Of a stretch of DNA of 64,000 nucleotides, positions 13,695 to 30,087 are shown one piece after another. Origin of the DNA: Thermogladius calderae 1633 (GTDB lineage: Archaea; Thermoproteota; Thermoprotei_A; Sulfolobales; Desulfurococcaceae); the NCBI RefSeq assembly GCF_000264495.1, contig NC_017954.1, positions 1,116,001-1,180,000 on the forward strand, given 5' to 3'. The first letter of the stretch is position 1. Every line of letters begins with the position of its first letter. Both the position numbers and the translations under genes were made by a program. Below the pieces are notes generated by a model. It ran no database searches and had not been told where the DNA came from. It worked only from the letters and a program-made list of their open reading frames with translations.

Positions 13695-14186
13695 CTACTT
13701 CGAGTGGAGCAGGTACACGTACTCGTCGTTCGCGTCCATCTTGAAAAGGCCGAGGAACGCGCCCCACTGGAGTATGTTCCGCTTAGCGTCGTTCAAGTGG
13801 AGGTGGTAGTACTGGGAGAGAACGCTCTCGTACTCGTCGGAGGTTATGACCTTCCTCCTGGAGAGCACGTCGAGTAGCGTGCTGAGCGGCTCTACCCTCT
13901 TGGCGTTCTCCCTCAGCAACTTCTTAACGTTCTTTATGTTGCCCGTCACGATTCTCTCGCCCAGCTCTGTGAGCACCACGTCGCCGTTGGGGGCGATCGC
14001 GACTAGCCCGAGGCTCTCCGCAACGTCGATTACGTGGGGCAGTATGTCGATGTTCTCGCCTAGCAGGTCCCCCAGGTTCATGGGGTCTGCCTTCCCGCCC
14101 AAGCTGTGGAGGGCCTCAACAAGGCCGAGTAGGTGGTCCGGTGTTAAGTAGTACGGTAGCACGATCTTCTTTGTATCTTGTGACAA
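13695..14186 (-). CDS. AAA-associated C-terminal-domain protein linked to NitT/TauT ABC transporter
   Basis: The 163-residue helical protein matches the stand-alone AAA-associated domain. In other prokaryotes this is fused to the C-terminus of nitrate/sulfonate/bicarbonate-type ABC ATPases. It begins LPYYLTPDHLLGLVEALHSLGG and has the typical two-part winged-helix-like make-up, with NGDVVLTELGERIVTGNIK. It is transcribed divergently from the ABC permease and ATPase genes, which supports a regulatory or accessory role in that importer. The ATG at 14186 is expected to be nearly leaderless given the shared TATA region. Confidence 0.72.
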   Translation of the reverse strand: MSQDTKKIVLPYYLTPDHLLGLVEALHSLGGKADPMNLGDLLGENIDILPHVIDVAESLGLVAIAPNGDVVLTELGERIVTGNIKNVKKLLRENAKRVEPLSTLLDVLSRRKVITSDEYESVLSQYYHLHLNDAKRNILQWGAFLGLFKMDANDEYVYLLHSK

Positions 14187-14205
14187 CCCCCTCTAAGCAC
14201 CCCGG

Positions 14206-14219
14206 TGGATATATTAAAT
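14206..14219. promoter_or_regulatory. Divergent TATA region for the ABC importer and its partner
   Basis: The sequence ATATATTAAATG sits about 25 bases from the ATG at 14186 on the minus strand. It lies about 40 bases before the GTG at 14255 on the plus strand, so it can serve as TATA box for both directions. Confidence 0.5.
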
Positions 14220-14254
14220 GCTCTGGATCCTAATAAACTTGACAACATGGAACG

Positions 14255-15754
14255 GTGTCTGCTTTGGTCCCGGAGCTCGTCGTGGCAACGCTTATGAGCC
14301 TCTACAGGATGTTCGCGGCATACCTTTTATCGCTCTTGATCGCCCTGTTTACGGGCATCGCGATGGCCAGGAACAGGGTCGTCGAGACGGTTCTCCTACC
14401 CATCCTAGACGTCCTCCAGTCCATACCCATACTGGGCTTCTTCCCCGTCGTCTTATCCGTGTTTGTCTACGCGCTGGGCCCGGGTGTGGGGGGCGAGCTG
14501 AGCGCAATAGTCCTGATAACGACGAGCCTGGTCTGGAACATGATCTTCGGCGTGTACGCGTCTGTTAAGTCCCTCGACCCCTCCTTCGACTTGATGGCCA
14601 GCGTGTACAGGATACCGCTCCCCCTTAAGGTGGCCTTGGTGTACGCCCCCGCCTCGCGCACGTCTCTTCTCTCCAATAGCATAATATCCTGGGCGGGCGG
14701 CTGGTTCTTCCTCACGAGCGCGGAGGTGATCTCGATGGGGTCCCAGACCCTCAAGCTGGTCGGGCTGGGGAGCTTCATATTCGACGCCTCGAACAGGGGG
14801 GACGCCCAGGCCTTCGCGGCCGGCATAGCAGTCTTATTCGCCGTCATCCTCGCAACCTACATACTCCTCTGGAACCCGGCTGTGGTGAAGTACACGGGGC
14901 TCGCCATACTCCCTGGTGTGGCGGCGGTCTACGACCTCCTCGAGAAGCTTACGAGGCTTTTCTGGGGGCTCGTGGTAAGGGCTGTCCTGAAACTCTGGGT
15001 CTACTCCAGGAGGCTCGCGCTACCTGCCACGGCCTTAATCCCGGCCGCTCTGCTGGGCCCCCGGGTGGAGCTACCCGGGGTCTCCGCCGTCACATTCTAC
15101 GATAACATGGTCAAATACTTGGACATGTTCCTGGGCAACGTCTGGCTGACGCTGGTCAGAGTCTACGTTGTAGTGCTCGTCTCACTACTAATATCTCTCC
15201 CGCTCGCGTACCTATCGCACAGGAGGAGGGCCACGGGGCTGGCCGCTTGTACGGCTGGGGAGCTCCTGTCGTCGATCCCGGCCGTGATCTGGTGGCCTCT
15301 ACTACTACCTGTCGCCCACATCGCCCCCTGGTTCGTCATGTTCTTCGTCTACCTCCAAGGCGCCCTGTGGTACGTGTACTTCAACGTCATGATCTTCGGG
15401 CTCCAGTACGTGAAGAGGGACGTCATCGAGCTGGCGGACGTGTACAGGGTGAGGGGGTTCCTGTACTTCAAGTCCGTGTTCATACCGGCCATGCTCCCCT
15501 CTATATTGACAGGTCTAATCTCCGCCTCGGGGGGTGCCTGGAACGCCTCTATAGCCGCAGAGTACATCGCACTCGAGAACTTCGAAGTAGACATGGGAGG
15601 GGTGGGGAGCCTCATAGACAAACTCGCGGCGGGGGGCGACGCGCTCGGGGTCTTGTTCGTAGCTTTATACATGAGCCTCGTGATAGTCTTGCTAAACAGG
15701 CTCGTCTGGCGCAGGCTATTCGCTAGGATGGGGTCGAGGTTCGTTGTCGACTAA
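14255..15754 (+). CDS. ABC transporter permease, two fused BPD domains (NitT/TauT type)
   Basis: The 499-residue protein contains two tandem binding-protein-dependent permease domains, at about residues 1-220 and 280-490, with 11-12 membrane segments in total. Each has an EAA-type loop; in the first the region around VYRIPLPLKVALVYAPAS is visible, in the second VYRVRGFLYFKSVFIPAMLP. Fusion of both permease halves is known for some archaeal anion-type importers. The downstream ATPase gene overlaps by 11 bases. No substrate-binding protein is encoded nearby, so the substrate (nitrate, sulfonate, bicarbonate or other) is unknown. Confidence 0.85.
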   Translation: MSALVPELVVATLMSLYRMFAAYLLSLLIALFTGIAMARNRVVETVLLPILDVLQSIPILGFFPVVLSVFVYALGPGVGGELSAIVLITTSLVWNMIFGVYASVKSLDPSFDLMASVYRIPLPLKVALVYAPASRTSLLSNSIISWAGGWFFLTSAEVISMGSQTLKLVGLGSFIFDASNRGDAQAFAAGIAVLFAVILATYILLWNPAVVKYTGLAILPGVAAVYDLLEKLTRLFWGLVVRAVLKLWVYSRRLALPATALIPAALLGPRVELPGVSAVTFYDNMVKYLDMFLGNVWLTLVRVYVVVLVSLLISLPLAYLSHRRRATGLAACTAGELLSSIPAVIWWPLLLPVAHIAPWFVMFFVYLQGALWYVYFNVMIFGLQYVKRDVIELADVYRVRGFLYFKSVFIPAMLPSILTGLISASGGAWNASIAAEYIALENFEVDMGGVGSLIDKLAAGGDALGVLFVALYMSLVIVLLNRLVWRRLFARMGSRFVVD

Positions 15755-16487
15755 GCTCACGCTCAGCATCAGGGGGCTGACAAAGAAGTACAAGGCTTCC
15801 GGCAGGGAGGTCCTGGTCTTGGACAACATAAGCTTCGACGTAGGCGAGGAGTTCATTGCCATACTAGGGCCCAGCGGCTGCGGGAAGTCGACCCTCCTCA
15901 GGATCATAGCCGGCGTGGAGAAGCCCGACTCCGGGACCGTGGAGTTCCACCTCGGGCACGAACCGAGAGTAGGCTTCGTCTTCCAGTTCCCCACCCTCCT
16001 GCCGTGGATGACGATCCTATCCAACGTAGCGCTACCGCTGCTCGCCAGAGGGGTGGGGGAGGGCGAGGCCAGGGAGAAGGCCAGGAGGGCCCTGACCCTC
16101 GTGGGGCTTGGGGAGTTCGAGGACTTCTACCCCAACGAGCTGAGCGGGGGGATGAAGCAGAGGGTGAACATAGCAAGGGCGCTCGCGGTCGAGCCCGACT
16201 TCCTCCTACTAGACGAGCCGTTCTCCAACCTCGACCCGCTTACGGCTGAGACCCTGAGGAGCGAGGTGCTCGACCTCTGGCTCTCCAGCGTCCTGCCCCT
16301 GAAGGCGATCATAATGGTCACCCACAACGTGGAGGAGGCAGTTTTGATGGCGGACAGGATCATAGTCCTGTCGCCGCGGCCCGCGAAGATCGTGAGGGAC
16401 GTCCGGGTGGACATCAAGAGGCCTAGGAGCAGGAAGATGCCCGAGGTGCAGGAGCTGGTGGACAGGATATACGAGTACGTCAGCTAG
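15744..16487 (+). CDS. ABC transporter ATP-binding protein (NitT/TauT type)
   Basis: The 247-residue ATPase has Walker A GPSGCGKST, a Q-loop in FQFPTLLPWM, the signature LSGGMKQR, Walker B FLLLDEPFSNLD and an H-loop in VTHNVEEA. The FPTLLPW and EAVLMADR segments are typical of SsuB/TauB/NrtD-like subunits. The start overlaps the permease end by 11 bases. The C-terminal AAA-associated domain often fused to such ATPases in archaea is absent here but is encoded divergently at 13695-14186. Confidence 0.92.
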   Translation: MSTKLTLSIRGLTKKYKASGREVLVLDNISFDVGEEFIAILGPSGCGKSTLLRIIAGVEKPDSGTVEFHLGHEPRVGFVFQFPTLLPWMTILSNVALPLLARGVGEGEAREKARRALTLVGLGEFEDFYPNELSGGMKQRVNIARALAVEPDFLLLDEPFSNLDPLTAETLRSEVLDLWLSSVLPLKAIIMVTHNVEEAVLMADRIIVLSPRPAKIVRDVRVDIKRPRSRKMPEVQELVDRIYEYVS

Positions 16488-17198: not shown

Positions 17199-17210
17199 AT
17201 GAAAAATAAA

Positions 17211-17255
17211 CCATATATAATCAGCAGGGAGTTATTAATCATGCACACTGCTTGG
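17211..17255 (+). promoter_or_regulatory. Promoter and ribosome site of the DUF1156-DUF499-helicase operon
   Basis: The TATA box CCATATATAA (17211-17220) predicts a transcription start around 17241. A GGTG ribosome site (about 17254-17257) lies a few bases before ATG 17262. This rules against the longer open frame starting at 17199. Confidence 0.6.
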
Positions 17256-17261
17256 TGTTAT

Positions 17262-20200
17262 ATGTTGAGCTCCTTCCTCGAGGCTGGGGAATTCCCGGTC
17301 GAGGTCGTCAATATCGCCAGTAGTAAGGAGAAGGGCCCTGGCAGGCCGCCGTTCTGGGAGATGGTGTTCTGGTGGACTAGGAAGCCTCTCGCCAGCGCTA
17401 GGGCTGTTATACTGGCGAGCCTACTGCCCGCCGACTTTAACTCGAATACCTTCCTCAGGACGGTCTACCCGAGCTATCAGGGAGGTGGGAGGTTCGGTAA
17501 GACGCCACACTTCCTCAACCCTAACTTGGGGAACCTGAGTAGGGAGCTGAGGGAGAAGATAGGAAAGGCAAGGCTCCTCGACCCCTTCGCGGGCTTCGGC
17601 TCCATACCCTTGGAGGCTGTGAGGCTGGGTGTAGGCGAAGTCGTGGCAGCAGAGCTCCTGCCCACCGCCTACATCTTCTTGAAGGCGGTCTTGGAGTACC
17701 CGAAGTGGGCTTCCAGCGAGAGGCTGGGGGAAAGGCTCGTCGGGGACGTCGAGAGGTGGGGTATGTGGGTCGTTGAGAGGCTTAGAGAGGACCCGGATCT
17801 GAGAGAGCTATACGACGAGGACGTCGCTGTCTACATAGGCACGTGGGAGGTGAAGTGCCCCTACTGCGGCAGGTACACTCCTCTAGTCGGCAACTGGTGG
17901 CTTGCGAGAGTGAAGGGCGAGAGGGGCTTTAAGGCGCTTGCCTGGATGAGGCCCGTGTTAGAAGGAGATAGGGTCGAGATCAGGGTCGAGGAGGTCACAG
18001 ACCCCGGAGAGCTGGAGTCCGCAACGCTGGTCAAGAGGGGCGATAAGATCGCCGCGGTCGAAATAAACGGGAGGAGGCTGACCGTGGGGGACCCGGCCCT
18101 CCAGGGAGACCCCAACATTAACGCAAGGAAGAGCGAGGCGATATGCCTAGCCTGCCACGCGAGGATCACGGGGAGCGGGGAGAAGTGGCACGTGAAGAGC
18201 TCGCTGAGGGAGTGGAACAGAAAGCTCGAGGAGTACCTCAGAGGAGAGATAACACTAGAACAGCTCAGGCAGGCACCGGCGAGGCCTAGGATACTCGTAA
18301 AGGTCAAGATACGGGGGGACAGTCTACACTTCGAGCCAGCCACAAGCATGGACGACGAGAAGCTCTGGAGAGCGCTTGAGAAGCTGAGGCAGATTTGGGG
18401 AGACCCAGACATACCAACAGAACCGATGACACCATACGGTGGACCCACCTTAGGAGATCCACCTTTGATCTTTAGAAACTTTTACAAGCTCTTCAACCCG
18501 CGCCAGCTCCTAACCTTGGTTAAGCTCGTCAAGCTGGTCAGGGAGGCCGGGAGGAAGGTCGAGGAGGAGAAGCTCGGAGAAGGCTGGGACAGAGAGAAAG
18601 CACACAAGTACGCGGAAGCAGTAACAACATACCTGGCAATAGCGCTAGTAAAACAAGCCGATTACAATAGTATAGTAGTAGCTTGGAATCCTGCGACGGG
18701 TTTTGGATCATCATTAGCATTACTACATGCAGGGCATACATTATCATTTAGAGGCATAGCTATGGCCTGGAACTTCGTAGAATATAATTTCATAATAGAC
18801 AAGGTTGGTTATGAGAAGTTTACCTCAATGGTTATTGATGGTCTTTCTTATCTCGTCTCTGCTGTTAGTGGTAGTCCTAGTAGGGTTAGGGTTCTGCTCG
18901 ACGATGCCACTGTTCTAAGTAAGCTCGGGGGCGAGAAGTTTGACTTGATCGTCACGGACCCGCCTTACAGGGACGACGTACCCTACGCTGAGCTCAGCGA
19001 CTTCTACTACGTGTGGCTCAAGAGGGCCTTGAGCGACGTTGAGGGCTCGTTGCTCAAGCCCAGGTTCCACGCAGATGCCTTCTTCAGGGACGGCGTCGAG
19101 GTAGCTACTCAGTGGGAGTGGTTCGCCTCCAGGGAGGTCTCTCTCAGTCTAGGGCGGTGTAAGTACTTCGAGGGGCTCGCCGAGCAACTCTGTGAAGAGA
19201 AGTACAGAGAAATGCTCGCCAAGTCTTTCAGGGCTATGGCCGACAGGCTCAGCGAGGACGGAGTACTGGTAACCTACTTTGCCCAGAGCTCCAGGGAGGG
19301 CTGGATCGCCCTAATAGAGGCGGGGTTGTCTAGGGACCTCGCGCCCACCTCCGCATTCCCGGTACTGACGGAGAGCGAGGAGAGCGTGGTCGCAAGAGGT
19401 AAATCCGCAATAACAGCCAGTATTGTCGTCTCTTGGAGGAAGGTGAAAGAGGCGAAACCCGTTGACGTTGCCGCGGATTACGAGCAGCTCCTAGACAAGG
19501 CGGTCAAAGTGGTGAAAGAGGTCGAGTCCTCGCTCGCCAAAGCCCACGAGAAGGTCGCCCCGAGCATGTTCGGGGTCACGGTGTACGTCATGTCCTACGC
19601 GAAGGTTTTAGGGTTGCTGACCAGTGGCGGGAGGCCCGTGAAGTCCGGTAAGCAGGTGGGCTCCGGCGAGATCGCCGAAATCGCCTCCGAGCTACTCGCC
19701 CGCGCCTACGCGCGGGGGGCTGGGGCAAACCTCTCGCTCGGGGACTCGGTGTTCTACTTCCTCGTCAAAAAGGTTTTCGCGAGGGGCGGGGAGGGCAGGA
19801 GGCTCGCGTCCAGCAGCGACCTAATACTCCTCAGCTACGGTACGCAAGCAGGGGGGGCCAGGCCGCTGGAGGGGTTCTGGAAGAGGGGTATAATCAAGGC
19901 CTACGGGAGGGAGGAGGAGACAGAGGTGTCGAGTAGGAAGACCTACATCCTCGTAGAGCCCTCCAGGGCTGGCGACGAGGTGGAGCTAGCCGAGGTGCTC
20001 AAGCTCCACGGGGTAAACCCGGAGAACCCAAAGACCTTCAAGAGCCCCGTCCACGTGCTCCACGCCCTGATGCTGTACTCCATGAGGCCCAAGGACGTGT
20101 TCAAGAAGTACTACGACAAGGCCTACTCCGAGAACCCCCAGTTGACGTCTGAGGCCTTGGAGCTAGCCAAGGCGCTCTCCACCCTCGGCGGCGACCCGGA

Positions 20201-20294
20201 GGCGGAGCTGTCCCTCCGAGTCCTGGACTACGTAGGTGTCAGGGTCGAGAGACAAAACAGGGGGGTGAGCCTGCTTGACTACCTCAAGCGTTAA
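17262..20294 (+). CDS. DUF1156 DNA methyltransferase (adenine-specific type, Zn-ribbon)
   Basis: The protein of about 1010 residues is of the COG1743 type. The N-terminal DUF1156 region reads FPVEVVNIASSKEKG and later FWWTRKPLASARA. The SAM-binding motif DPFAGFGSIPLEA is near residues 107-119. A zinc ribbon is formed by CPYCG (near 198) and CLACH (near 294), and the catalytic DPPYRDD is near 566. Such enzymes modify adenine in host DNA in BREX type 3 (PglXI-like) and related systems. The start is ATG 17262, chosen for its TATA spacing and GGTG site. It overlaps the DUF499 gene by 20 bases. Positions about 18590-18880 are clearly AT-richer with different codon use, hinting at a mosaic gene. 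Confidence 0.88.
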   Translation: MLSSFLEAGEFPVEVVNIASSKEKGPGRPPFWEMVFWWTRKPLASARAVILASLLPADFNSNTFLRTVYPSYQGGGRFGKTPHFLNPNLGNLSRELREKIGKARLLDPFAGFGSIPLEAVRLGVGEVVAAELLPTAYIFLKAVLEYPKWASSERLGERLVGDVERWGMWVVERLREDPDLRELYDEDVAVYIGTWEVKCPYCGRYTPLVGNWWLARVKGERGFKALAWMRPVLEGDRVEIRVEEVTDPGELESATLVKRGDKIAAVEINGRRLTVGDPALQGDPNINARKSEAICLACHARITGSGEKWHVKSSLREWNRKLEEYLRGEITLEQLRQAPARPRILVKVKIRGDSLHFEPATSMDDEKLWRALEKLRQIWGDPDIPTEPMTPYGGPTLGDPPLIFRNFYKLFNPRQLLTLVKLVKLVREAGRKVEEEKLGEGWDREKAHKYAEAVTTYLAIALVKQADYNSIVVAWNPATGFGSSLALLHAGHTLSFRGIAMAWNFVEYNFIIDKVGYEKFTSMVIDGLSYLVSAVSGSPSRVRVLLDDATVLSKLGGEKFDLIVTDPPYRDDVPYAELSDFYYVWLKRALSDVEGSLLKPRFHADAFFRDGVEVATQWEWFASREVSLSLGRCKYFEGLAEQLCEEKYREMLAKSFRAMADRLSEDGVLVTYFAQSSREGWIALIEAGLSRDLAPTSAFPVLTESEESVVARGKSAITASIVVSWRKVKEAKPVDVAADYEQLLDKAVKVVKEVESSLAKAHEKVAPSMFGVTVYVMSYAKVLGLLTSGGRPVKSGKQVGSGEIAEIASELLARAYARGAGANLSLGDSVFYFLVKKVFARGGEGRRLASSSDLILLSYGTQAGGARPLEGFWKRGIIKAYGREEETEVSSRKTYILVEPSRAGDEVELAEVLKLHGVNPENPKTFKSPVHVLHALMLYSMRPKDVFKKYYDKAYSENPQLTSEALELAKALSTLGGDPEAELSLRVLDYVGVRVERQNRGVSLLDYLKR

Positions 20295-23200
20295 GCCATT
20301 TACCAGCGTGCTCAAGCCCAGGAAGGAGGTTCTCGAGGGCAGGATAATCGAGGCCCTAAGCCTCGCAGACGCTTACATAGCTAACGAGTTGAGAGGGAGG
20401 GTCGAGGGCGTCGAGAGCCTGCCTGAGAGCCCGCTGTACGAGCCCAAGGAGTTCCTGAAGAGGACATACTTTAGCGAGTCCATGAAGAGGGTCCTCCTGA
20501 ACGTTATGGGGTCTTTAGCAGGTGTCCAGTACCTCTACAAAGACAAGGAGGGGCTAGACAAGTTTAAGGTACAGAATAGGATTCTAATTATACCCAGCCA
20601 CCTAGGGGGCGGGAAGACCCACCTCCTCACCACCCTCTACTTCGTGGCGAAGCTGGTTAACGAGGAGGGGGCGCACGCACTAAGGTACCTGGAAGTGGAC
20701 GATAAGACAAGGAATGCGCTCAAGCACGCTATAGACGTATTAGTCCAAGCGGGTAGGAAGATACAGGTAGTCGCCCTAGTAGGAGACAGGAAGTACCTCG
20801 CGCCCAGCCCGCTGAACCCCGTGACCGTCGACGGAGTGAAGGTCAACACTCCCTGGGGCCTCCTCGCCCACCTCCTACAAGAGTACGATAAAGTCCGCGT
20901 AGGAGACGAATCCTTCGCCGCCCCCTTCACCGATGAAATAAAGAAAGTACTGCGGGACAAGACCGTGCTGATACTCATAGACGAGGCCGTAGAGTACTTA
21001 GAGCACGCCACGGGCGTCTCGCGTAGAGTGAAAGACTACGACGAGTCCTACATATCCTTTTTAAAGCGGCTCGCTGAGGCTGTCAACGATACGCCAAACA
21101 GCGTGTTGGTAGTCACTTTACCCGCAGAGTACAGAGAGGGACGGCTAGAGCCTGGCCCCCAACACCCTGAGTACGTGAAGAAGATCTTCGCTGAATTAGA
21201 GAGAGTTGCACCACTGAAGCTACCTCCCATGGAGAAAAAGGAAATAGTGGAAGTGTTTAAGAGAAGGCTCTTCGAGAACGCCTACGAGAGTGATGCCAAG
21301 AGGTGTGCGGCGGAGGTCGCCGAGGAGGCTTTTAATAAGGCCAGTGCGGACAATGCCCTCTCGGACGCTATCAAAATCAGGTACGGAGACATCGCCGCTT
21401 TCAAGAGGAGCCTGGAAGGGCATTATCCGTTCCACCCGTACTTTGTGGAGACGCTCGTCAACATAGCCTCGACAAGCCCAGAGCTCGGGCTGACCAGGCA
21501 CTTGATATCCTACGTCGCGAGACTGGTAAAGGAGGTCTACGACACTGCATCACAGCGTAAGAGAGAGCCTCGTACAGCCCTATTCACAACCTGGCTCATA
21601 CCGCTCGACGCGCCCGAGTTCAGGACTGACCTGTTGAGTAAAATGCCATCAGACGTCCAGAGCGACTTCCAGAGGATCTACGAGGAGGACGTGAAGAAGA
21701 AGTTCGGGCGGAAAGTAGAGGAGTATATATGGAGCTTGGACCCCGCCTCTCCGCAGGAGGCCCGCGACTTCGTAAAGGCAGCCGTCGCTAGGACGGTCTG
21801 GCTCACGTCTATACCCGGGCGGGGTAGCAAGAGGAGCGAAGTTGCGAAGCTCTACCCAGTATCCAAAGAGCTACCCGCGCTCGTCTACGACCCGCTCGCA
21901 TTCCAGAGGGTCTTCATGGCCGACGTCGTCAACGCCGTCGATGAGCTACTAAGCGAATCGACCTACATGGTCAAGACGGATGAAAACAGGGTGCTCTACG
22001 CTAGGATCGCAGACTTGACCAAGATACTCCGCGAAAAGTACTTGAGTGTAACAGAGCACGACGCCCTCTCAGTTTTAGAGGGTTTAGTTAACGAACAGGC
22101 CATCAAAGGCGGGAGGAAGATCAGGAGAGTCCGGCCGATCACCTCACACAAGTTCCTCGAGCTCGACCTGCTCAGGAAAGAGGTCGAGGAAAACGATGAT
22201 CCACTCGTGCTTATGTACATCGGCTTACAGGAGCCCGACCAAAACCTAGTCGAGTCCCTCTTGTCGAGGAACAACGTGCTGTTCCTGCTCCCCGACTACA
22301 ACATGGACCCCATGGATTGGGGGCTGATGTACACCGAAACCATCAAGGCGATCGCCGGCAGAGAGCCCGACACTATGAGGGACTTCTTGCTCAACCTCCT
22401 CAAAGTCGTCAAGGCTGTCAGGGACTTGGCGAACAACCGCGAGTACCTTTTGGAGGTCGTGGGCGAGGAGCACCTGGACGATACACGGAACAAGCTGAAA
22501 AGGTTAGAGGAGGAGGTTGTAAGACATGTCGTGCTCGCGATATACACCATGATGAGGAGGGTAGTTATAGGGACGCGGAGGCAACAGTACGAGGTGGAAT
22601 TGAGGCCCACGGAGGGGGTCAGCGACTTATCGAACATAGTGAGGCTACTAGAGGGGGCACTGGAGAGGAGAGGCGTCATAACTAAGTGGGAGTGGAGCGA
22701 CGTCTACAACCAGCTCAGCGGGTTCAAAAAACTGTGGGACAGCAACATGAGCCTTAAGGAGCCGATCAAGGTCAAGGACCTCTGGGATCAGCTACTCAAC
22801 GCCCGCGATGTAGAGCCTCACATAACGGGCTTCAGCGACCTCCTCGACGCACTGAAGACCGCGTACGAGAACTGTATGATCGCTTTCAGGTACAAGGGCG
22901 AAGTGCTGTGGATAGACTACCCGTTCTCCGAGGCCGAGGCGGAGCAGTTCTACAGGACGGGTAGGAAGTATGCTTGCAGTTGGCAGAAGGACGTCGCAAA
23001 CAAGATGGAACGCCTCGGCGCCAGTGTCAAAGAGCTGGAGGCCGTGCACCCAAGCTTCGTCCTAAACGAGTACCTCGAGAGGCTACGTGCCAAGGCATCC
23101 ACCAAGCCCGGGGAGAGGGTGGTACGTAGACTCGCAGTGTACATGCCCGACGGTAATAAAGTGGACCTCACGACCTTCCTCGAAACGTCTAAACAAAACA

Positions 23201-24009
23201 TTGTTGAAGCTTTGTCCTCCCACCCAGTGGTACTCGTGGAGGAGACCCCGCCAAGGGTCTTCAATATGAGGGTGACTAGTGTCAACGGGAAGCAGCTCGG
23301 GAAGGAGCCCGTCGAGCTAGGAGGGGAGGGGGGTCTGGAAATCGTCGTTGAGGGCTCGATGGAGAGCGCCGAGGAGTTCCCTGTGGAGATAGAGCTCAAG
23401 GCCGTCGAGGAAATATCGAGACAAACGGCGTCCAGCAATAGAGTGGAGGCGAGATCCAAAGGATCGTTTACAGCAAAAATAACGGTGAACCAGCCAGGCG
23501 AGTACATCGTAGTAGTCACAGCTAGAGACGCCGCGGCGCCCAAGGGTTACAGGACAGAGGAGGTCCCGGTTGCCAGAGTCAGGGTCAGTGGAGAGTACTG
23601 TGTCAGTCGGTCGGTGAAAGGCGTGGACTTCGCCAATTGGGAGCCTCCAGTTGGCGTGAGGCTCGAGTTGACCAAGCTCAACATCGAGGGCCGAATCCTT
23701 AAAGGCGCGATCAAAAGTCTAGCAGACCTATTGAACTCTCTCAGCACGTACAGGATTTACGCAGACGGCTACGTTGAATTGGAGAACCAGGGCGAGGAGC
23801 TGAGGATAAGCTTCAGAAAGGCGAGCACGAACAGGCTCTCCAGGCTCCTACAGTCGCTGGGCGTGGACGTGGACGTGTACGCTAAGATAGAGCTCCAGAG
23901 CGCCGGGTCAAACATCAGACTGGCCGACCTTATAAAACTCGTTGAGGACAGGTTTAAGTCTCTCGAGGCCGTGCTGAGCCTGGATTACAGGGAGTGCAGG
24001 AGCGTGTGA
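20275..24009 (+). CDS. DUF499 AAA-type ATPase (BrxC/PglY-like)
   Basis: The 1244-residue protein has a P-loop SHLGGGKTHLLTTLY (residues 108-122) and Walker B TVLILIDEAVEYLE (230-242), with an arginine-rich lid. A long alpha-helical C-terminal part and a beta-rich region near residues 1000-1150 follow. DUF499 ATPases accompany DUF1156 methylases and helicases in BREX-like loci, where they are thought to couple recognition with exclusion of phage DNA. The start is TTG at 20275 inside the methylase 3' end, so the two are translationally coupled. The stop is separated by two bases from the next ATG. Confidence 0.85.
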   Translation: MTTSSVKPFTSVLKPRKEVLEGRIIEALSLADAYIANELRGRVEGVESLPESPLYEPKEFLKRTYFSESMKRVLLNVMGSLAGVQYLYKDKEGLDKFKVQNRILIIPSHLGGGKTHLLTTLYFVAKLVNEEGAHALRYLEVDDKTRNALKHAIDVLVQAGRKIQVVALVGDRKYLAPSPLNPVTVDGVKVNTPWGLLAHLLQEYDKVRVGDESFAAPFTDEIKKVLRDKTVLILIDEAVEYLEHATGVSRRVKDYDESYISFLKRLAEAVNDTPNSVLVVTLPAEYREGRLEPGPQHPEYVKKIFAELERVAPLKLPPMEKKEIVEVFKRRLFENAYESDAKRCAAEVAEEAFNKASADNALSDAIKIRYGDIAAFKRSLEGHYPFHPYFVETLVNIASTSPELGLTRHLISYVARLVKEVYDTASQRKREPRTALFTTWLIPLDAPEFRTDLLSKMPSDVQSDFQRIYEEDVKKKFGRKVEEYIWSLDPASPQEARDFVKAAVARTVWLTSIPGRGSKRSEVAKLYPVSKELPALVYDPLAFQRVFMADVVNAVDELLSESTYMVKTDENRVLYARIADLTKILREKYLSVTEHDALSVLEGLVNEQAIKGGRKIRRVRPITSHKFLELDLLRKEVEENDDPLVLMYIGLQEPDQNLVESLLSRNNVLFLLPDYNMDPMDWGLMYTETIKAIAGREPDTMRDFLLNLLKVVKAVRDLANNREYLLEVVGEEHLDDTRNKLKRLEEEVVRHVVLAIYTMMRRVVIGTRRQQYEVELRPTEGVSDLSNIVRLLEGALERRGVITKWEWSDVYNQLSGFKKLWDSNMSLKEPIKVKDLWDQLLNARDVEPHITGFSDLLDALKTAYENCMIAFRYKGEVLWIDYPFSEAEAEQFYRTGRKYACSWQKDVANKMERLGASVKELEAVHPSFVLNEYLERLRAKASTKPGERVVRRLAVYMPDGNKVDLTTFLETSKQNIVEALSSHPVVLVEETPPRVFNMRVTSVNGKQLGKEPVELGGEGGLEIVVEGSMESAEEFPVEIELKAVEEISRQTASSNRVEARSKGSFTAKITVNQPGEYIVVVTARDAAAPKGYRTEEVPVARVRVSGEYCVSRSVKGVDFANWEPPVGVRLELTKLNIEGRILKGAIKSLADLLNSLSTYRIYADGYVELENQGEELRISFRKASTNRLSRLLQSLGVDVDVYAKIELQSAGSNIRLADLIKLVEDRFKSLEAVLSLDYRECRSV

Positions 24010-24011
24010 GC

Positions 24012-24452
24012 ATGGGGTTGCAGATCGGCGCGAACCTTAAAGTCGTGATCCAGCCCGTCCCGGCCAAGAGGCCGTACTACATGCTCCGGGTGTACGACGA
24101 GGGCAGACTATTCCTACAGGCCAAGAGGGTGCTCAAGCCCGAGTACGTCTTGAAGTGGGTTATCTACAACCAGTCTCTCATAGAGGGGGACTTCATGAAG
24201 ATAGAGAAGAGGAAATCCGGCACCGTTGTTATTTCTGTGAGCAGGGCGGCTGACAGGCACTTCAAGCTCCTGCTCTTCCACTCGCTCAGCGTCCTCAACA
24301 TAAAGTCGTCCAAGAAGGCCGACTGCCTAGCTACTTGTTGGTCCAGCATAGACGCTATAAGCCCCGTGATCGACGCCTTGTGGAGCCTCATGATGGTCGT
24401 TGACACGAGGAGGTTCTCCAGCCTACTAAGAGGATATTGCTTATGCAGGTAG
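24012..24452 (+). CDS. Unknown 146-residue protein of the defence operon
   Basis: The ATG at 24012 follows the DUF499 stop by two bases (GTGTGAGCATG), and the stop lies 10 bases inside the helicase gene, so it is a true operon member. The N-terminal half is beta-rich and basic (PAKRPYYMLRVYDEGRLFLQ, KRVLKPEYVLKWVIYNQSL). The C-terminal half is helical with a CLATCW pair and ends in GYCLCR, so four cysteines could bind metal. No known domain is recognised. It occupies the place where other systems encode small partners such as BrxF or a specificity factor, but no similarity is seen. Confidence 0.75.
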   Translation: MGLQIGANLKVVIQPVPAKRPYYMLRVYDEGRLFLQAKRVLKPEYVLKWVIYNQSLIEGDFMKIEKRKSGTVVISVSRAADRHFKLLLFHSLSVLNIKSSKKADCLATCWSSIDAISPVIDALWSLMMVVDTRRFSSLLRGYCLCR

Positions 24453-27400
24453 AGGAGCCGGCGCTACCACTGAAGGGGGTTCTCAGCCTAGTTCTAGAGC
24501 CGTTATTCAAGTACAACCCTTTCTTCAGCCTCTACTACAACCCGTTCTCGTCCCCTCCAGAGCCCCAGGTTGTCTCGAAACCGTACCTCAACTTCCTCCA
24601 CCAAGTCTCCCTAGTATTGGACGTGATCCCCAGGAGAAGGGTGAGGCTTCTAATAGGGGACGAGGTGGGGCTCGGCAAGACTGTCGAGGCCATCCGCCTT
24701 ATCAAGTACCTAGCCATGGTGGGTGAGGCCTCGAAAATCCTGATCATCGCCCCAAGAGCCCTTATCCGGCAGTGGCTCTACTACGAGTTGTGGGACCTCC
24801 TTCACGCCCCTGGCGTCCTGAGGGTGCTTGGTAAAAAGACGGTGGAGGCAGTAAAGAGAGAACTCGAGGAGGGTGGTAAGCCCCTCATAATGGTAGCACC
24901 GCTGGACTTGGCCAAGCGTGGCACGGCGGACAAGCACGCCTATGGCCGGTACAAGCCTTACATCGAGGTACTGTCTAGTGTAGACTGGGACCTCGTGGTG
25001 TTGGACGAGGCGCACCAGGTCGGGTTCACAGGCCCCAAGCCGAGTCTCAGAGTGAAGAGGCTGAGTCCCATCCTCAAAAGAGCCAAGCACTTGATCCTAC
25101 TATCTGCCACCCCTTCCAGGGGCACTCACAAGGACATGATCTTGAGGATGTCCCTTCTCATTCCCGACGCAGACACTGCGCTGCGAGAGCTAGCCGAAAA
25201 CCCCGAAAAGCGGAAGAGACTCTACGAGGACGCGGCCGGTCTACTAGTCTACAGGAGGACAAAGGAGCACGTCAACCTGGCAGAGGGCAGAGAGGTGTTT
25301 ACGAAGCTCAACTCCTTCATGGCCCTAGTCAAGCTAGGCGAGGCAGCGCAACTCTACGAGAGGCTCGGCAAGCTCCTAGGGAGGCTTCTAGGCCTGTTTG
25401 GCTCCAACGCGAACACCCTGCTAAAGCTGGTGTTGTTGAAGAGAGCGCTTTCCAGCCCTTACGCCTTCCTGAAGACGTTCATGAAGGTGGTGGAATCCCG
25501 CTCCACTCCAGAGCCCGAGCTTAAGAGACTACGCGTTTCCGACCGCCTCGTCGAGGAAAACCCCGACGCTCTTGTAGAGGAGGTTCTCTACTCGACTATC
25601 AGGTCCGTACCAAGCGAGCTCCGCGATGAAGCAGCACTCCTCTTGTCCGAGTTCCAGAAGCTATACGAAGCCGGGGACCCCAGCTTCAGGGCCCTGGCCT
25701 ACTTGCTCTACTACTCCGCGACTGGTAGAGGCGGGGCCCCGAGCGAACTGAGAGGCGACTACATAGTGTTCAGCGAGTACAGCGACACTGTGGACTACCT
25801 CTTCTCGAAGTTCACGGAGTTCCTGAAGGGCGTGGGCTTCACCGAGAGGAGCGACCTACTCGACAAGTTGCTGGGAGGAGTTTCCGAAAAACTCTCCCAG
25901 CGGGCACCATACGCGAGGCTCAAGAGGCTCGAGTCCGTGAGAAACTCGTTCAAGGTTCTCGAGGGACAAGGCAAGTTCTTCGTCGTGGGCAAGGTCTCCT
26001 CGAAAAACCGTGAGCTCGTCTACGCGCTCCCGGCCCTCGGCGAGACGGCCGGTGAGGTGCTGGGGGCTGGCGTAGTAAAGGTCCTGTTCAGTACCGACGT
26101 AGCCTCCGAGGGATTAAACCTCCAGGAATTCAACGTCGTCGTGAACTACGACGCGACCTGGAGCCCTGTGAGGAGGGAGCAGAGGATTGGTAGAGTCTAC
26201 CGTCTGAGACAGACCAGGGACTGCAGCGTAGTCGACTTCGTCAGGTACACCACTGTAGAGCTCGCGTTCTACGAGAAGCTCGTGTTAAAGCTTCTCAACA
26301 TGCTCGAGCAGAAAGTCGCCACGAGGCCGATCGAGAGCCTGCTGGAGCTATACCTGGAAAAGGAGGGGTCTGGGGGCGGGGAGAGGCTCGTGGTCTCCGA
26401 GAAGTCTATCGGAGCCGCTCTGCTACACGTGTTCGAGGGCTACTACGCTAGGAGCCTCCCCATCGAGCCCCTCCTCGAGGAGGCCTACAAAATGCTGCTG
26501 GAAAAGCTGAGGACCTACAAAGACCTAGCCGAGTCGCTCACGCCGAGTTACGAGGAAGTGCGTAGGCTCCAGAAATATGTCTGGCATTTCACGGGTTGCT
26601 CCAGCCACGAGGAGTTCCAACGAGTTGTCCTCAGACTAGTGGAAGTATTCCTCGGTAGGCGCTATACGGAGCCTTCCAGGGCGATCAGGGAGCTATATAA
26701 GGCATTGGTGGGTCAGAAGCCCGCGACCGACCACGTGGTTGTTGTAAACGAGAGTGGGCTCGAGGAGGGCTATATCGCCGTAGTCGATTTCAAGCTCGGG
26801 GGGACGACCAGGTTTTCTACCCCGGTAGCTGTTCTGAGGAGAGGGGGCAACGTCGAAGTTCTAGTCGGGCTACAGGTACTGGACTGGCTGGCTCAGAAGC
26901 AGTCTGAGGGTAGACTTGATGTCCTCAAAGCAGATTGGGTGGGTAGCAAGCCACCGAGGATTTTGGAGGATGAGGTCTCTAAGTTAGCCAAGAAGCTGGA
27001 CCTGCTATTATACGAGCGGCTCTGGAAGAAGCGGGATAGACTCGTAGAGCTCACAAAGACCAGGCTCGTAGACTTGGAAAGGCTGGAGGCGGAGGTCGAG
27101 AGCCCCTTCATACACGTAGTTGGAGTCGGAGGCGTCGAAGAGTACGGGATCGACTGGCAGTCACTGCCCCCCGAAAAGAGGGAGTGGATGGAAAGGGTTA
27201 GCGTTGAGCACGTCGCCAGCTTATTCAGGGAAAGGGGCTGTAGGGTTCTCGAGATTAATATAGGGAAAGCGAAGCCCTACGATGTACTCGTAGAGTGCCC
27301 GGGACCTGGTGGACCGGAGAGGCTGGAGGTCGAGGTGAAAAGCCACCTGGAAAAGGTCTTCGTCGCCGGCTTAACGGATTGGGAGACCAAAGAGGCAGAG

Positions 27401-27571
27401 AAGAACCCAGCGAAGTACATTGTCTGCAACGTGGCTGGGTTGAAAGAGCCCGACAGGTCTTCGTGGGTCACTGTTTGCGGAAGGTACGCCGACCTACCTA
27501 AGAGACTTGTCGTCCAGGTTAAGGAGGAGAAGCGGGCCATCATCTTCTTCGGAGGCCGCCAGGACGTTTAA
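24443..27571 (+). CDS. SNF2-type helicase with C-terminal DUF3883 nuclease-like domain
   Basis: The superfamily 2 helicase has motif I GDEVGLGKTVEA (near 74-84), DEAH at 190-193, motif III LSATPSRG (near 223-230), motif V STDVASEGLNLQ and motif VI QRIGRVYRLRQ. The C-terminal 120 residues read KPYDVLVECPGPG, LEVEVKSHLEKVFVAGLTDWE and KYIVCNVAG. This is a DUF3883-type PD-(D/E)xK-like fold with D and ExK placed as in nucleases. The helicase resembles BrxHII/DrmD of BREX 3 and DISARM class 1. ATG 24443 is preferred over TTG 24437 because a GAGG site lies 9 bases upstream. It is the last gene of the operon. Confidence 0.87.
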   Translation: MQVEEPALPLKGVLSLVLEPLFKYNPFFSLYYNPFSSPPEPQVVSKPYLNFLHQVSLVLDVIPRRRVRLLIGDEVGLGKTVEAIRLIKYLAMVGEASKILIIAPRALIRQWLYYELWDLLHAPGVLRVLGKKTVEAVKRELEEGGKPLIMVAPLDLAKRGTADKHAYGRYKPYIEVLSSVDWDLVVLDEAHQVGFTGPKPSLRVKRLSPILKRAKHLILLSATPSRGTHKDMILRMSLLIPDADTALRELAENPEKRKRLYEDAAGLLVYRRTKEHVNLAEGREVFTKLNSFMALVKLGEAAQLYERLGKLLGRLLGLFGSNANTLLKLVLLKRALSSPYAFLKTFMKVVESRSTPEPELKRLRVSDRLVEENPDALVEEVLYSTIRSVPSELRDEAALLLSEFQKLYEAGDPSFRALAYLLYYSATGRGGAPSELRGDYIVFSEYSDTVDYLFSKFTEFLKGVGFTERSDLLDKLLGGVSEKLSQRAPYARLKRLESVRNSFKVLEGQGKFFVVGKVSSKNRELVYALPALGETAGEVLGAGVVKVLFSTDVASEGLNLQEFNVVVNYDATWSPVRREQRIGRVYRLRQTRDCSVVDFVRYTTVELAFYEKLVLKLLNMLEQKVATRPIESLLELYLEKEGSGGGERLVVSEKSIGAALLHVFEGYYARSLPIEPLLEEAYKMLLEKLRTYKDLAESLTPSYEEVRRLQKYVWHFTGCSSHEEFQRVVLRLVEVFLGRRYTEPSRAIRELYKALVGQKPATDHVVVVNESGLEEGYIAVVDFKLGGTTRFSTPVAVLRRGGNVEVLVGLQVLDWLAQKQSEGRLDVLKADWVGSKPPRILEDEVSKLAKKLDLLLYERLWKKRDRLVELTKTRLVDLERLEAEVESPFIHVVGVGGVEEYGIDWQSLPPEKREWMERVSVEHVASLFRERGCRVLEINIGKAKPYDVLVECPGPGGPERLEVEVKSHLEKVFVAGLTDWETKEAEKNPAKYIVCNVAGLKEPDRSSWVTVCGRYADLPKRLVVQVKEEKRAIIFFGGRQDV

Positions 27572-28199
27572 GCGGCCTGTGAATGGAGCTGGGCGGAAAG
27601 GCCTCCCAGCTAGCCCTCGACCCCCGCTGGACTCCCGGGCGCAGAGGGGGTTTTGTGGTTGCCGCGGCTCAGCGTCGGGGCTGCCCAGCCTCTCCGCGCT
27701 CGCTGCTTCCACCACGCGGACGGGGCTGCTGGCGGCGGGGGCTCGAACCCGTGTATGCTTTAGATCCCCCGGGCCATGTGTAGGGGTTGGCGGGCTAGCG
27801 GGGTGTAGTGGAGTGTCGTGCGGCCAAGTCGGCGCGAGTGAACTCCTTTCCTCTGTCAGAGAGAGGGTCGTAAGGTGGGCTCTGGAGCACAGGTTCGACT
27901 ACCCTTGGAGAGTGGAGAGGACGCCGTACAGGGTTCTGCTCGCCGAGTTCCTTCTCAGGAGGACCACAAGAACAGCGGTGGCCAGGGCCTTCCAAGCCCT
28001 CGTCGAGAGGTTCCCGGACGTGGAGTCGTTGCACAGTGCCCCCCTAGAGGAGGTTGAGGAGGCCCTAAAACCCCTCGGGCTGTACAGGGTGAGGGCCAGG
28101 CAGTTGAAGGAGCTCGCGGCCGTTATCGTGGAGGAGTACGGTGGCAGGATACCCGACTCGTGGGAGGAGCTGGTGAGGCTGCCGGGGGTCGGCCGCTCA

Positions 28200-28252
28200 C
28201 CCGAGAGCGGTCTTTGACTGCCTTTCATGTTTATCGATTGCCGCCCTCGGGT
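28200..28252. repeat. Imperfect 12-bp inverted repeat near the left end of the tnpB element
   Basis: ACCCGAGAGCGG and CCGCCCTCGGGT match in inverse at 11 of 12 positions and enclose about 29 bases. This could form the left-end hairpin that TnpA recognises on single-stranded DNA. Confidence 0.5.
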
Positions 28253-28342
28253 TCCCCGCGGTCTCCCCGAGCCCCCTCACCGCCCTTCTGGAGCGGATCT
28301 CGGAAACCCGGGGTCACCAACAGGCTTAAAGGGAGTTGGGGT

Positions 28343-28351
28343 TTATAAGCC
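28343..28351 (+). promoter_or_regulatory. TATA box of the second tnpB gene
   Basis: GGTTTATAAG lies about 25 bases before ATG 28370, so the transcript would be leaderless or nearly so. Confidence 0.45.
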
Positions 28352-28369
28352 TATCTGGGGAATCCCCAC

Positions 28370-29518
28370 ATGAGCTACATCACAATCGCCTTGCCCTTCA
28401 ACATCGGTGGAGAGGTCGCTGGCAAGATACTGTCCACGGCTTGGCTATTTAAAGCGGCTACTCACAGAGTGCTCCACCTTGCCAAGAGCTCGCCCGCCCT
28501 TCCGGGCTCCGACATTGGGTGGAAGGCGACCTTCAGGAAGGACGCTTACGCGGTCATACCGAACCGCAGATATGCCGACGGGGCTGTAGTATTAGTCAGG
28601 GGGATATACGAGTCCTGCAGGGAACTCGGAGTAGACTTCAGAGGAGTTGAGCTGGGGGATTGGCTGATGTTCCAGCAAGCCGAGAAGGAGTACCCCGCAA
28701 GAAACATAACCCTGAGACCGGGGGGAGAGATCCACGTGACGACCATAAGCTACAGCGGCGCAGTCGAGAGAGTGGTAGTCAAGCCCACTATCCCCAAGAG
28801 CTACGCCGCTCTCGTCGAGAAAATACTCGAGGAGAAGCAGGAGCACGCGGCTAGAGTCGTCGTCAAAGGTTACGGCGTCAGAAAGGGAGTTGTCTGGGTC
28901 AGCGGCGAAGTGCAACTGACAATTCCATTGACCTTTTACTACAGGCACATGGCAAGGTATAGAACCAACAAGGGGAGCCTCTACGGAGGCGTTGACGTAA
29001 ATGTAGACAGAGTAAACTTAGCGATAATTGACAACAGCGGGGAGCTGAGAGACACGTACACGTTCTGGTTTAGAGAGGTCGTCGCCAGAGGCTATCCTAT
29101 GAGGAGCGCCAGATCAGTCATTGGCATGAGAGTCCACGAGTTGCTCGAGTACGCCTACCACCACGGCGTCAAGGTACTGTTCCTAGAGAACCCTGCAGTT
29201 CTCGGGCGGCTCAGGTTGCTGTGGGCTAGGAGCACGGAGAGGGGGAGCGAGAACTACAACTGGAAGGTGAGCACCTTCAGGAGCTCCATTATAGAGATGA
29301 TCGCATTGAAGGCGCCGCTCTACGGCATAGAGGTTGCCTACGTGAACCCAAAGGGAACGAGCAACTCGCGAGAGCACAGCGAAGCCATGAAGAAGCTCAG
29401 GCTAGACAGGCACGCGGCCTCGGCGTACCTCATAGCGCTAAGGGGGTTGCGAAGCAAAGTAAACGAGCCCAATGATCATGAATTACGTTACAGCCCTACA
29501 CTGCGGGGGCGCTTCTAA
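28370..29518 (+). CDS. TnpB-like nuclease without zinc ribbon
   Basis: The 382-residue protein shows the three RuvC-like catalytic regions: D209 in YGGVDVNVDRVNLAIID, E273 in KVLFLENPAV and D347 in RLDRHAASAYLIAL. The usual CxxC...CxxC zinc ribbon between the last two is absent; YVNPKGTSNSREHSEAMKKL occupies the site directly. The N-terminal half is only distantly like other TnpB proteins. The stop codon lies within the glycosylase target, so the C-terminal residues (TLRGRF) are partly encoded by host DNA. It is a separate lineage from the IS607 TnpB at 6534-7808. The intact triad suggests activity. Confidence 0.83.
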   Translation: MSYITIALPFNIGGEVAGKILSTAWLFKAATHRVLHLAKSSPALPGSDIGWKATFRKDAYAVIPNRRYADGAVVLVRGIYESCRELGVDFRGVELGDWLMFQQAEKEYPARNITLRPGGEIHVTTISYSGAVERVVVKPTIPKSYAALVEKILEEKQEHAARVVVKGYGVRKGVVWVSGEVQLTIPLTFYYRHMARYRTNKGSLYGGVDVNVDRVNLAIIDNSGELRDTYTFWFREVVARGYPMRSARSVIGMRVHELLEYAYHHGVKVLFLENPAVLGRLRLLWARSTERGSENYNWKVSTFRSSIIEMIALKAPLYGIEVAYVNPKGTSNSREHSEAMKKLRLDRHAASAYLIALRGLRSKVNEPNDHELRYSPTLRGRF

Positions 29519-30087
29519 GCTTCGCCTACGGCAAGCCCGCGCCAGTGGTGGACGGGAACGTGGCGAGAGTGCTCGCCAGGCTGACGGGGCACGCCGCGAG
29601 GAGGTGGGGGGACTACCTGGCCCCCCTCCGTAGGCTGCTACCCGAGGACAGGCACCAGGAGTTCAACTACGGGCTGATAGACCTCGGCGCCCTCGTCTGC
29701 CGGCCCAGGAACCCGAGGTGCTGGGAGTGCCCTCTCAGAGACCTCTGCGCCTACTACCAGAGGGCAGTGGGGGAGGAGGCCTGCGCGCGGCGGCTAGAGG
29801 AGGCCTACGCAGAAGTCCTTCGCCCCTGAAGAGGCGCGGCTTGCGCGGTCTAGGCCAGCTACCCGTCGCGGGCCTCCCGCTCGCTATATGCGGGCGAGGA
29901 GTACCTCGAGCTCCTGGTGTCGAAGAGAGTGGTAGAGGAACCACCCGGAGACGTGGGGCTGGCGGTGTCAGAGTAAGCCGTCTACAAGCTTTGTCAATGA
30001 CCACTCTATTGCTCTCCACCCTTGTAGCGTAAAGGCGCTGAGCGCCGGGCCCCCTACTGATGCCTCTTATTTATCTTCGACAACGAG

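Follow-up and report, generated by a model that had tools for sequence, protein, structure and literature searches.

A small gene conserved beside DUF499 in a PglZ-less, BREX-related candidate defence operon of Thermogladius calderae and other archaea

An operon in which a HEPN-DUF499 gene accompanies an SNF2-DUF3883 helicase gene was noted in 2013, and DUF3883 was termed a novel REase domain (PMC3710099). In 2020, an archaeal operon of COG1743, DUF499, and SNF2-nuclease genes was noted, DUF499 was described as ORC/Cdc6-like, and much the same mechanism as that considered below was proposed (PMC7641849). The name Hma was given in 2021 (PMC8565338). The main text of a 2026 classification distinguishes three DUF499-centred BREX-Related (BR) types (PMC12839542). 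Type 1 consists of three genes only, encoding the ATPase, a methyltransferase, and a helicase-REase; Type 2 has DUF3780 and an HKD-helicase; Type 3 has PglZ, which is normally missing from Types 1 and 2. BR/Hma systems are described as three-protein machines, with Type 2 alone carrying an extra small protein, one with no known homologues.

We analyzed a 64,000-nucleotide stretch of the genome of Thermogladius calderae 1633, a hot-spring archaeon of the Desulfurococcales (NC_017954.1, positions 1,116,001 to 1,180,000), hereafter called the window. It contains four ORFs on a single (+) strand, each overlapping or abutting its neighbour. Pfam and PADLOC identify the first as a DUF1156 (COG1743-type) DNA amino-methyltransferase (17199..20294, with the likely true start at 17241) and the second as a DUF499 ORC/Cdc6-like AAA+ ATPase (20275..24009). 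The third ORF (23994..24452) encodes a small alpha+beta protein of 152 aa, recognized by conservation in its slot, an AlphaFold model, and a profile score. The fourth (24437..27571) encodes an SNF2 helicase with a C-terminal DUF3883/NOV_C nuclease-type domain according to Pfam. Position 17211, at which the initial annotation had started the operon, coincides with an AT-rich, TATA-like stretch (17213-17220). Homologues of the methyltransferase have N-termini that start near the ATG at 17241. A leaderless start at this ATG is likely because the TATA-like box ATATATAA (17213..17220, + strand), recognized from sequence, lies approximately 25 nt upstream. Sigma-70 promoter and terminator scans, whose models are ill-suited to archaea, gave hits at chance level, and an Rfam search returned no meaningful match.

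The domain content of the three large proteins was as initially annotated. The methyltransferase matches Pfam DUF1156 (E=7e-13) and the PADLOC models HmaB (173 bits) and MTase_II (652 bits), and its ORF contains a TDPPY motif. The ATPase matches DUF499 (E=1.8e-69) and PADLOC HmaC (102 bits); its GGGKTH motif and Walker B DE are invariant in an alignment with 16 relatives, and no HEPN match was obtained on it. The helicase matches SNF2 (3e-14), Helicase_C (2e-13), and NOV_C (3e-6). The PADLOC models HmaA, HmaB, and HmaC match the three large proteins. Within its DUF3883 domain, the D and ExK residues are kept in 18/18 aligned helicases, and we infer a C-terminal nuclease domain of the PD-(D/E)XK type that would be capable of cutting. 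Pfam detected neither a PLD nor a Tudor domain in the window helicase, for which the alignment shows only a short N-terminal stretch ahead of the motor. Helicases of archaeal relatives likewise match NOV_C, and Type 2 helicases match PLDc_2 in the same search.

General membership in the BR/Hma group is indicated by the presence of a DUF499 ATPase, a DUF1156 N6-type methyltransferase, and an SNF2 helicase in a single locus. The initial annotation had regarded the operon as BREX/DISARM-like and remarked on the missing PglZ. The absence holds and extends further: the whole 1,356,318-bp genome contains no PF08665 (PglZ) match and no BrxL, and across the order PglZ matches were weak and none adjoined DUF499. 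Its absence is what the published BR Types 1 and 2 would lead one to expect, rather than an oddity. The labels fared less well. Without PglZ or BrxL, the operon is not BREX proper; BrxA and BrxB had no match among the four operon proteins in Pfam or PADLOC. Nor is it DISARM, as Pfam found no DUF1998 (DrmB) or PLD (DrmC) partner in the operon. Of the proposal of a compact, separate antiviral system, the compact PglZ-less set of methylase, ATPase, and helicase-nuclease stands, and the separateness does not, given the published composition of Hma/BR systems. The system of three core parts is thus already published and not new. What appears to be unreported, judging from the main text of the literature, is the variety with four genes, one of them coding for a subunit conserved in its slot.

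DUF499 was found in 35/147 genomes of the order. The closest locus (L081) belongs to a Thermogladius metagenome-assembled genome (MAG) and is 97% identical over DUF499. Against this relative, dN/dS values were 0.24 for the methyltransferase (compared as a fragment), 0.31 for the ATPase, and 0.16 for the helicase, from which all three genes are judged to be under purifying selection. In a FastTree phylogeny of DUF499, which carries a long-branch warning, the four-gene loci form one group (support 100); bacterial three-gene loci and loci with DUF3780 or DUF7680 fall outside it. No DUF499 relatives were found in viral contigs.

To the initial annotation, the small protein was an unknown of secondary interest; it proved to be the most informative part of the operon. 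It has no match in Pfam, NCBIfam, or PADLOC, though the latter two both include DUF3780. Selecting loci by DUF499, independently of the small gene, we found a small ORF of 137-184 aa between the DUF499 and helicase genes in 47/47 pairs at archaeal-type loci (some were fetched twice, leaving approximately 39 distinct loci), spanning Thermoproteota, other archaea, and two bacteria. The four-gene set, which might have turned out never to occur together elsewhere, thus recurs in many genomes. The window protein shares 47-56% identity with same-slot proteins in four close relatives, and this conservation in the slot rules out a chance ORF. Its own clade is narrow, occurring in 5/398 genomes of the phylum plus genome G036 and a few MAG loci. 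The wider family was modelled from nine other Desulfurococcales slot proteins, and this model found 22 slot proteins among independently fetched loci, a few of which repeat loci already used; its matches include Thermococcus, Methanocaldococcus, a Methanosarcinales MAG, Calescibacterium, and a deltaproteobacterial MAG. When genomes were searched without regard to context (26-sequence model), 27 copies were obtained in 25/398 genomes, and 25 of the 27 lay directly beside DUF499. One member of the archaeal small-protein family (L204:1435-1827, genome G108) precedes a DEAD-box helicase gene, with no DUF499 recognized within 1.5 kb on either side, and possibly represents a different system employing the same subunit. 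The small gene is not universal, because bacterial three-gene loci, ordered helicase-methyltransferase-DUF499, have no small gene after DUF499.

Compared with its counterpart in the 97% relative, the small gene differs by 6 nonsynonymous changes and 1 synonymous change, too few to conclude from; set against the operon's other genes pooled, the difference (Fisher p=0.048, uncorrected) hints at faster change in the small gene. The small protein is best read as a fourth subunit that evolves rapidly and goes with DUF499, with which we infer a physical pairing.

AlphaFold predicts for the window protein the element order EEE-H(H)-EE-HHHH (pLDDT 90, pTM 0.84) and for the wider archaeal family EEE-H-(E)E-HHHH (pLDDT 94, pTM 0.89). 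Compared by element order alone, the confident predictions for the window protein and for its more remote kin agree. A detached Tudor domain is ruled out by this predicted order, and a search of the PDB with both models yielded no match at E<=0.001. The main text of PMC12839542 gives DUF3780 a four-stranded sheet and five helices, with no homologues found, an element count similar to that of both models.

In bacterial DUF499 loci, the corresponding slot holds DUF7680 (E=1e-37 in L126 and 9e-8 in L123). All seven DUF7680 copies that were checked, five of them located through the DUF7680 model alone and not by way of DUF499, are neighbours of DUF499 and a DUF1156 methyltransferase gene. We found no published mention of DUF7680. 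The archaeal slot family and DUF7680 are related by profile, with a score of 37.8, where the highest of 200 column shuffles reached 17.5. For the window protein against the archaeal family, the profile score was 23.4 (maximum of 20.7 in 200 shuffles), although the hhalign probability was low, at 5-10%. As it also agrees in slot, size, and predicted element order, we regard its membership in the archaeal slot family as likely. Its relationship to DUF7680 is indirect, by way of that family. At Type 2 loci, DUF3780 lies downstream of DUF499 in 6/6 cases, immediately so in 5. The DUF3780 profile scored against DUF7680 above 196/200 shuffles, which is no more than suggestive of kinship with DUF7680 and the small protein. 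The small protein is not itself DUF3780: there was no Pfam match, and 79/200 shuffles scored as high as the window clade did against the profile. DUF3780 (PF12635) had no match in the T. calderae genome, and 0/147 genomes of the order rose above the cut-off.

Two large phage contigs from IMG/VR carry a solo DUF7680 gene and no DUF499 (L166:5893-6321 and L167:5911-6327). In the first, the gene follows one for the antirestriction protein ArdA, an arrangement that would be consistent with action as a decoy or against host defence.

The surroundings of the operon and some related loci offered further observations. Upstream (13695-16487) lie an AAA_assoc_C protein gene, a permease-like ORF, and an ABC ATPase-like ORF; by sequence these are ABC-transporter-like rather than defence genes, and there is no obvious defence island on that side. 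Downstream (27843-29829), a TnpB-like gene (28370-29518) interrupts the gene for an HhH-GPD (endonuclease III/MutY-like) DNA glycosylase, whose N-terminal half ends near 28190 and whose C-terminal half, with the Fe-S motif, resumes near 29510. Neither the glycosylase nor the TnpB-like gene is counted as a member of the operon, given that an unrelated gene stands at this position in the 97% relative. EVE-domain genes, encoding modified-base readers, adjoin the methyltransferase gene in two related loci (L042:14066-14518 and L043:6422-6907), as has been reported for archaeal loci (PMC7641849). In a further DUF499 locus (L039:3260-6269, genome G020), the helicase slot is occupied by two shorter ORFs (572 and 447 aa) without a match to the helicase model, and this system may be broken or may use another effector.

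The operon as a whole is best read as a restriction-modification-like defence, and we consider it probable that it represents an archaeal four-gene variety of the DUF499-centred BR/Hma systems working along the following lines. The DUF1156 enzyme would methylate a sequence motif in host DNA and so mark it as self. The ORC-like DUF499 ATPase, with the small protein bound, would form a scanning and licensing complex able to recognize DNA that is foreign or lacks the modification, whereupon the SNF2 motor would be recruited and translocate and the DUF3883 nuclease domain would cut. The defence function, the methylation target, and the nuclease activity in this scheme are putative. The helicase-nuclease of a bacterial relative has been reported to be antiphage (Liu 2024, cited in PMC12839542). 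A broader extension is only tentative: that the DUF499 systems other than the bacterial three-gene ones share one fast-evolving alpha+beta superfamily docking on DUF499, comprising the archaeal small protein, DUF7680, and DUF3780 and serving as a recognition or licensing subunit, and that the solo phage copies act as jamming decoys.

A rather unlikely alternative is that the small protein is neither reader nor adaptor for foreign DNA but holds DUF499 and the helicase-nuclease in check, as a regulator or in the manner of an antitoxin. A nuclease motor with toxic potential has to be kept under control, the protein is small, fast-evolving, and always adjoins DUF499, and phages that carry the related DUF7680 on its own could have borrowed it as an inhibitor. 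However, the small protein contains no domain known from regulators or antitoxins, its predicted fold matches nothing in the PDB, and the fusions of DUF3780 to modified-base reader domains that the main text of PMC12839542 describes favour recognition, if the two families are related. That the operon is instead an ordinary three-protein BR Type 1/Hma system, its small gene being a lineage-specific, dispensable passenger, strikes us as improbable. Type 1 is defined as three genes in the main text of that classification, bacterial three-gene loci do without the small gene after DUF499, and its substitution counts make no short-term constraint evident. A passenger would nevertheless hardly be expected to fill the slot in every pair from Thermoproteota, other archaea, and two bacteria, to be co-located with DUF499 in nearly all context-free copies, or to belong to a family related to the DUF7680 of equivalent bacterial loci.

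Slightly less probable still is that the methylase, ORC-like ATPase, and chromatin-remodeller-type motor form an epigenetic or replication-control module that is not antiviral. The ORC/Cdc6-like nature of DUF499 (PMC7641849) would agree with such a role, and we found no published experiments on archaeal members of DUF499 systems. Against it stand the patchy presence of DUF499 within the order, the conserved nuclease motif of the helicases, and the antiphage report for the bacterial relative's helicase-nuclease. On the reading we prefer, a BR/Hma defence with a fourth subunit, the small gene appears to be a genuine component that the archaeal machine had been lacking in descriptions, given its constant position in all archaeal copies that we examined.

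If a subunit is indeed kept beside DUF499 across archaea and several bacterial lineages, the archaeal machine would be a four-part one. DUF7680 would then gain a function, and the small subunit would offer a single handle on the recognition of foreign DNA by the widespread BR/Hma systems. Reconstitution of an archaeal system should, in that case, include the small gene.

Among described systems, BR Type 1/Hma (PMC12839542, PMC8565338) shares with the window operon the DUF1156 methyltransferase, DUF499, an SNF2 helicase with a PD-(D/E)XK-type end, and the lack of PglZ. The window operon differs in its slot-conserved fourth gene and in its order, methyltransferase-ATPase-small gene-helicase, in a short helicase N-terminus that would leave little space for the N-terminal Tudor domain of Type 1 helicases, and in having no HEPN match on DUF499. 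BR Type 2 (NCBIfam NF042961-NF042964) likewise has four genes, with a small alpha+beta protein encoded beside DUF499; its helicase, however, is of the PLD/HKD kind, and the window locus has no PLD, a small protein unrecognized as DUF3780, and a DUF499 in a different clade. BR Type 3 is set apart by its PglZ. The COG1743-DUF499-SNF2-nuclease operon with EVE (PMC7641849) has the archaeal core in common, and EVE adjoins the L042 and L043 operons, whereas none was seen beside the window operon; we found no mention of the small slot gene in PMC7641849. BREX Type 3 (BrxXI, BrxC, BrxHII, and PglZ) shares a related methylase, an ORC-like ATPase, and an SNF2 helicase, but the window operon has DUF499 in place of BrxC and neither PglZ nor BrxL. 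The resemblance of its helicase to DrmD of DISARM extends only to the common SNF2 core. In bacterial loci, Pfam DUF7680 (PF24728) takes the corresponding place next to DUF499; whereas the window protein has no match to PF24728 and its direct profile comparison is at noise level, the archaeal slot family is related to DUF7680 by profile.
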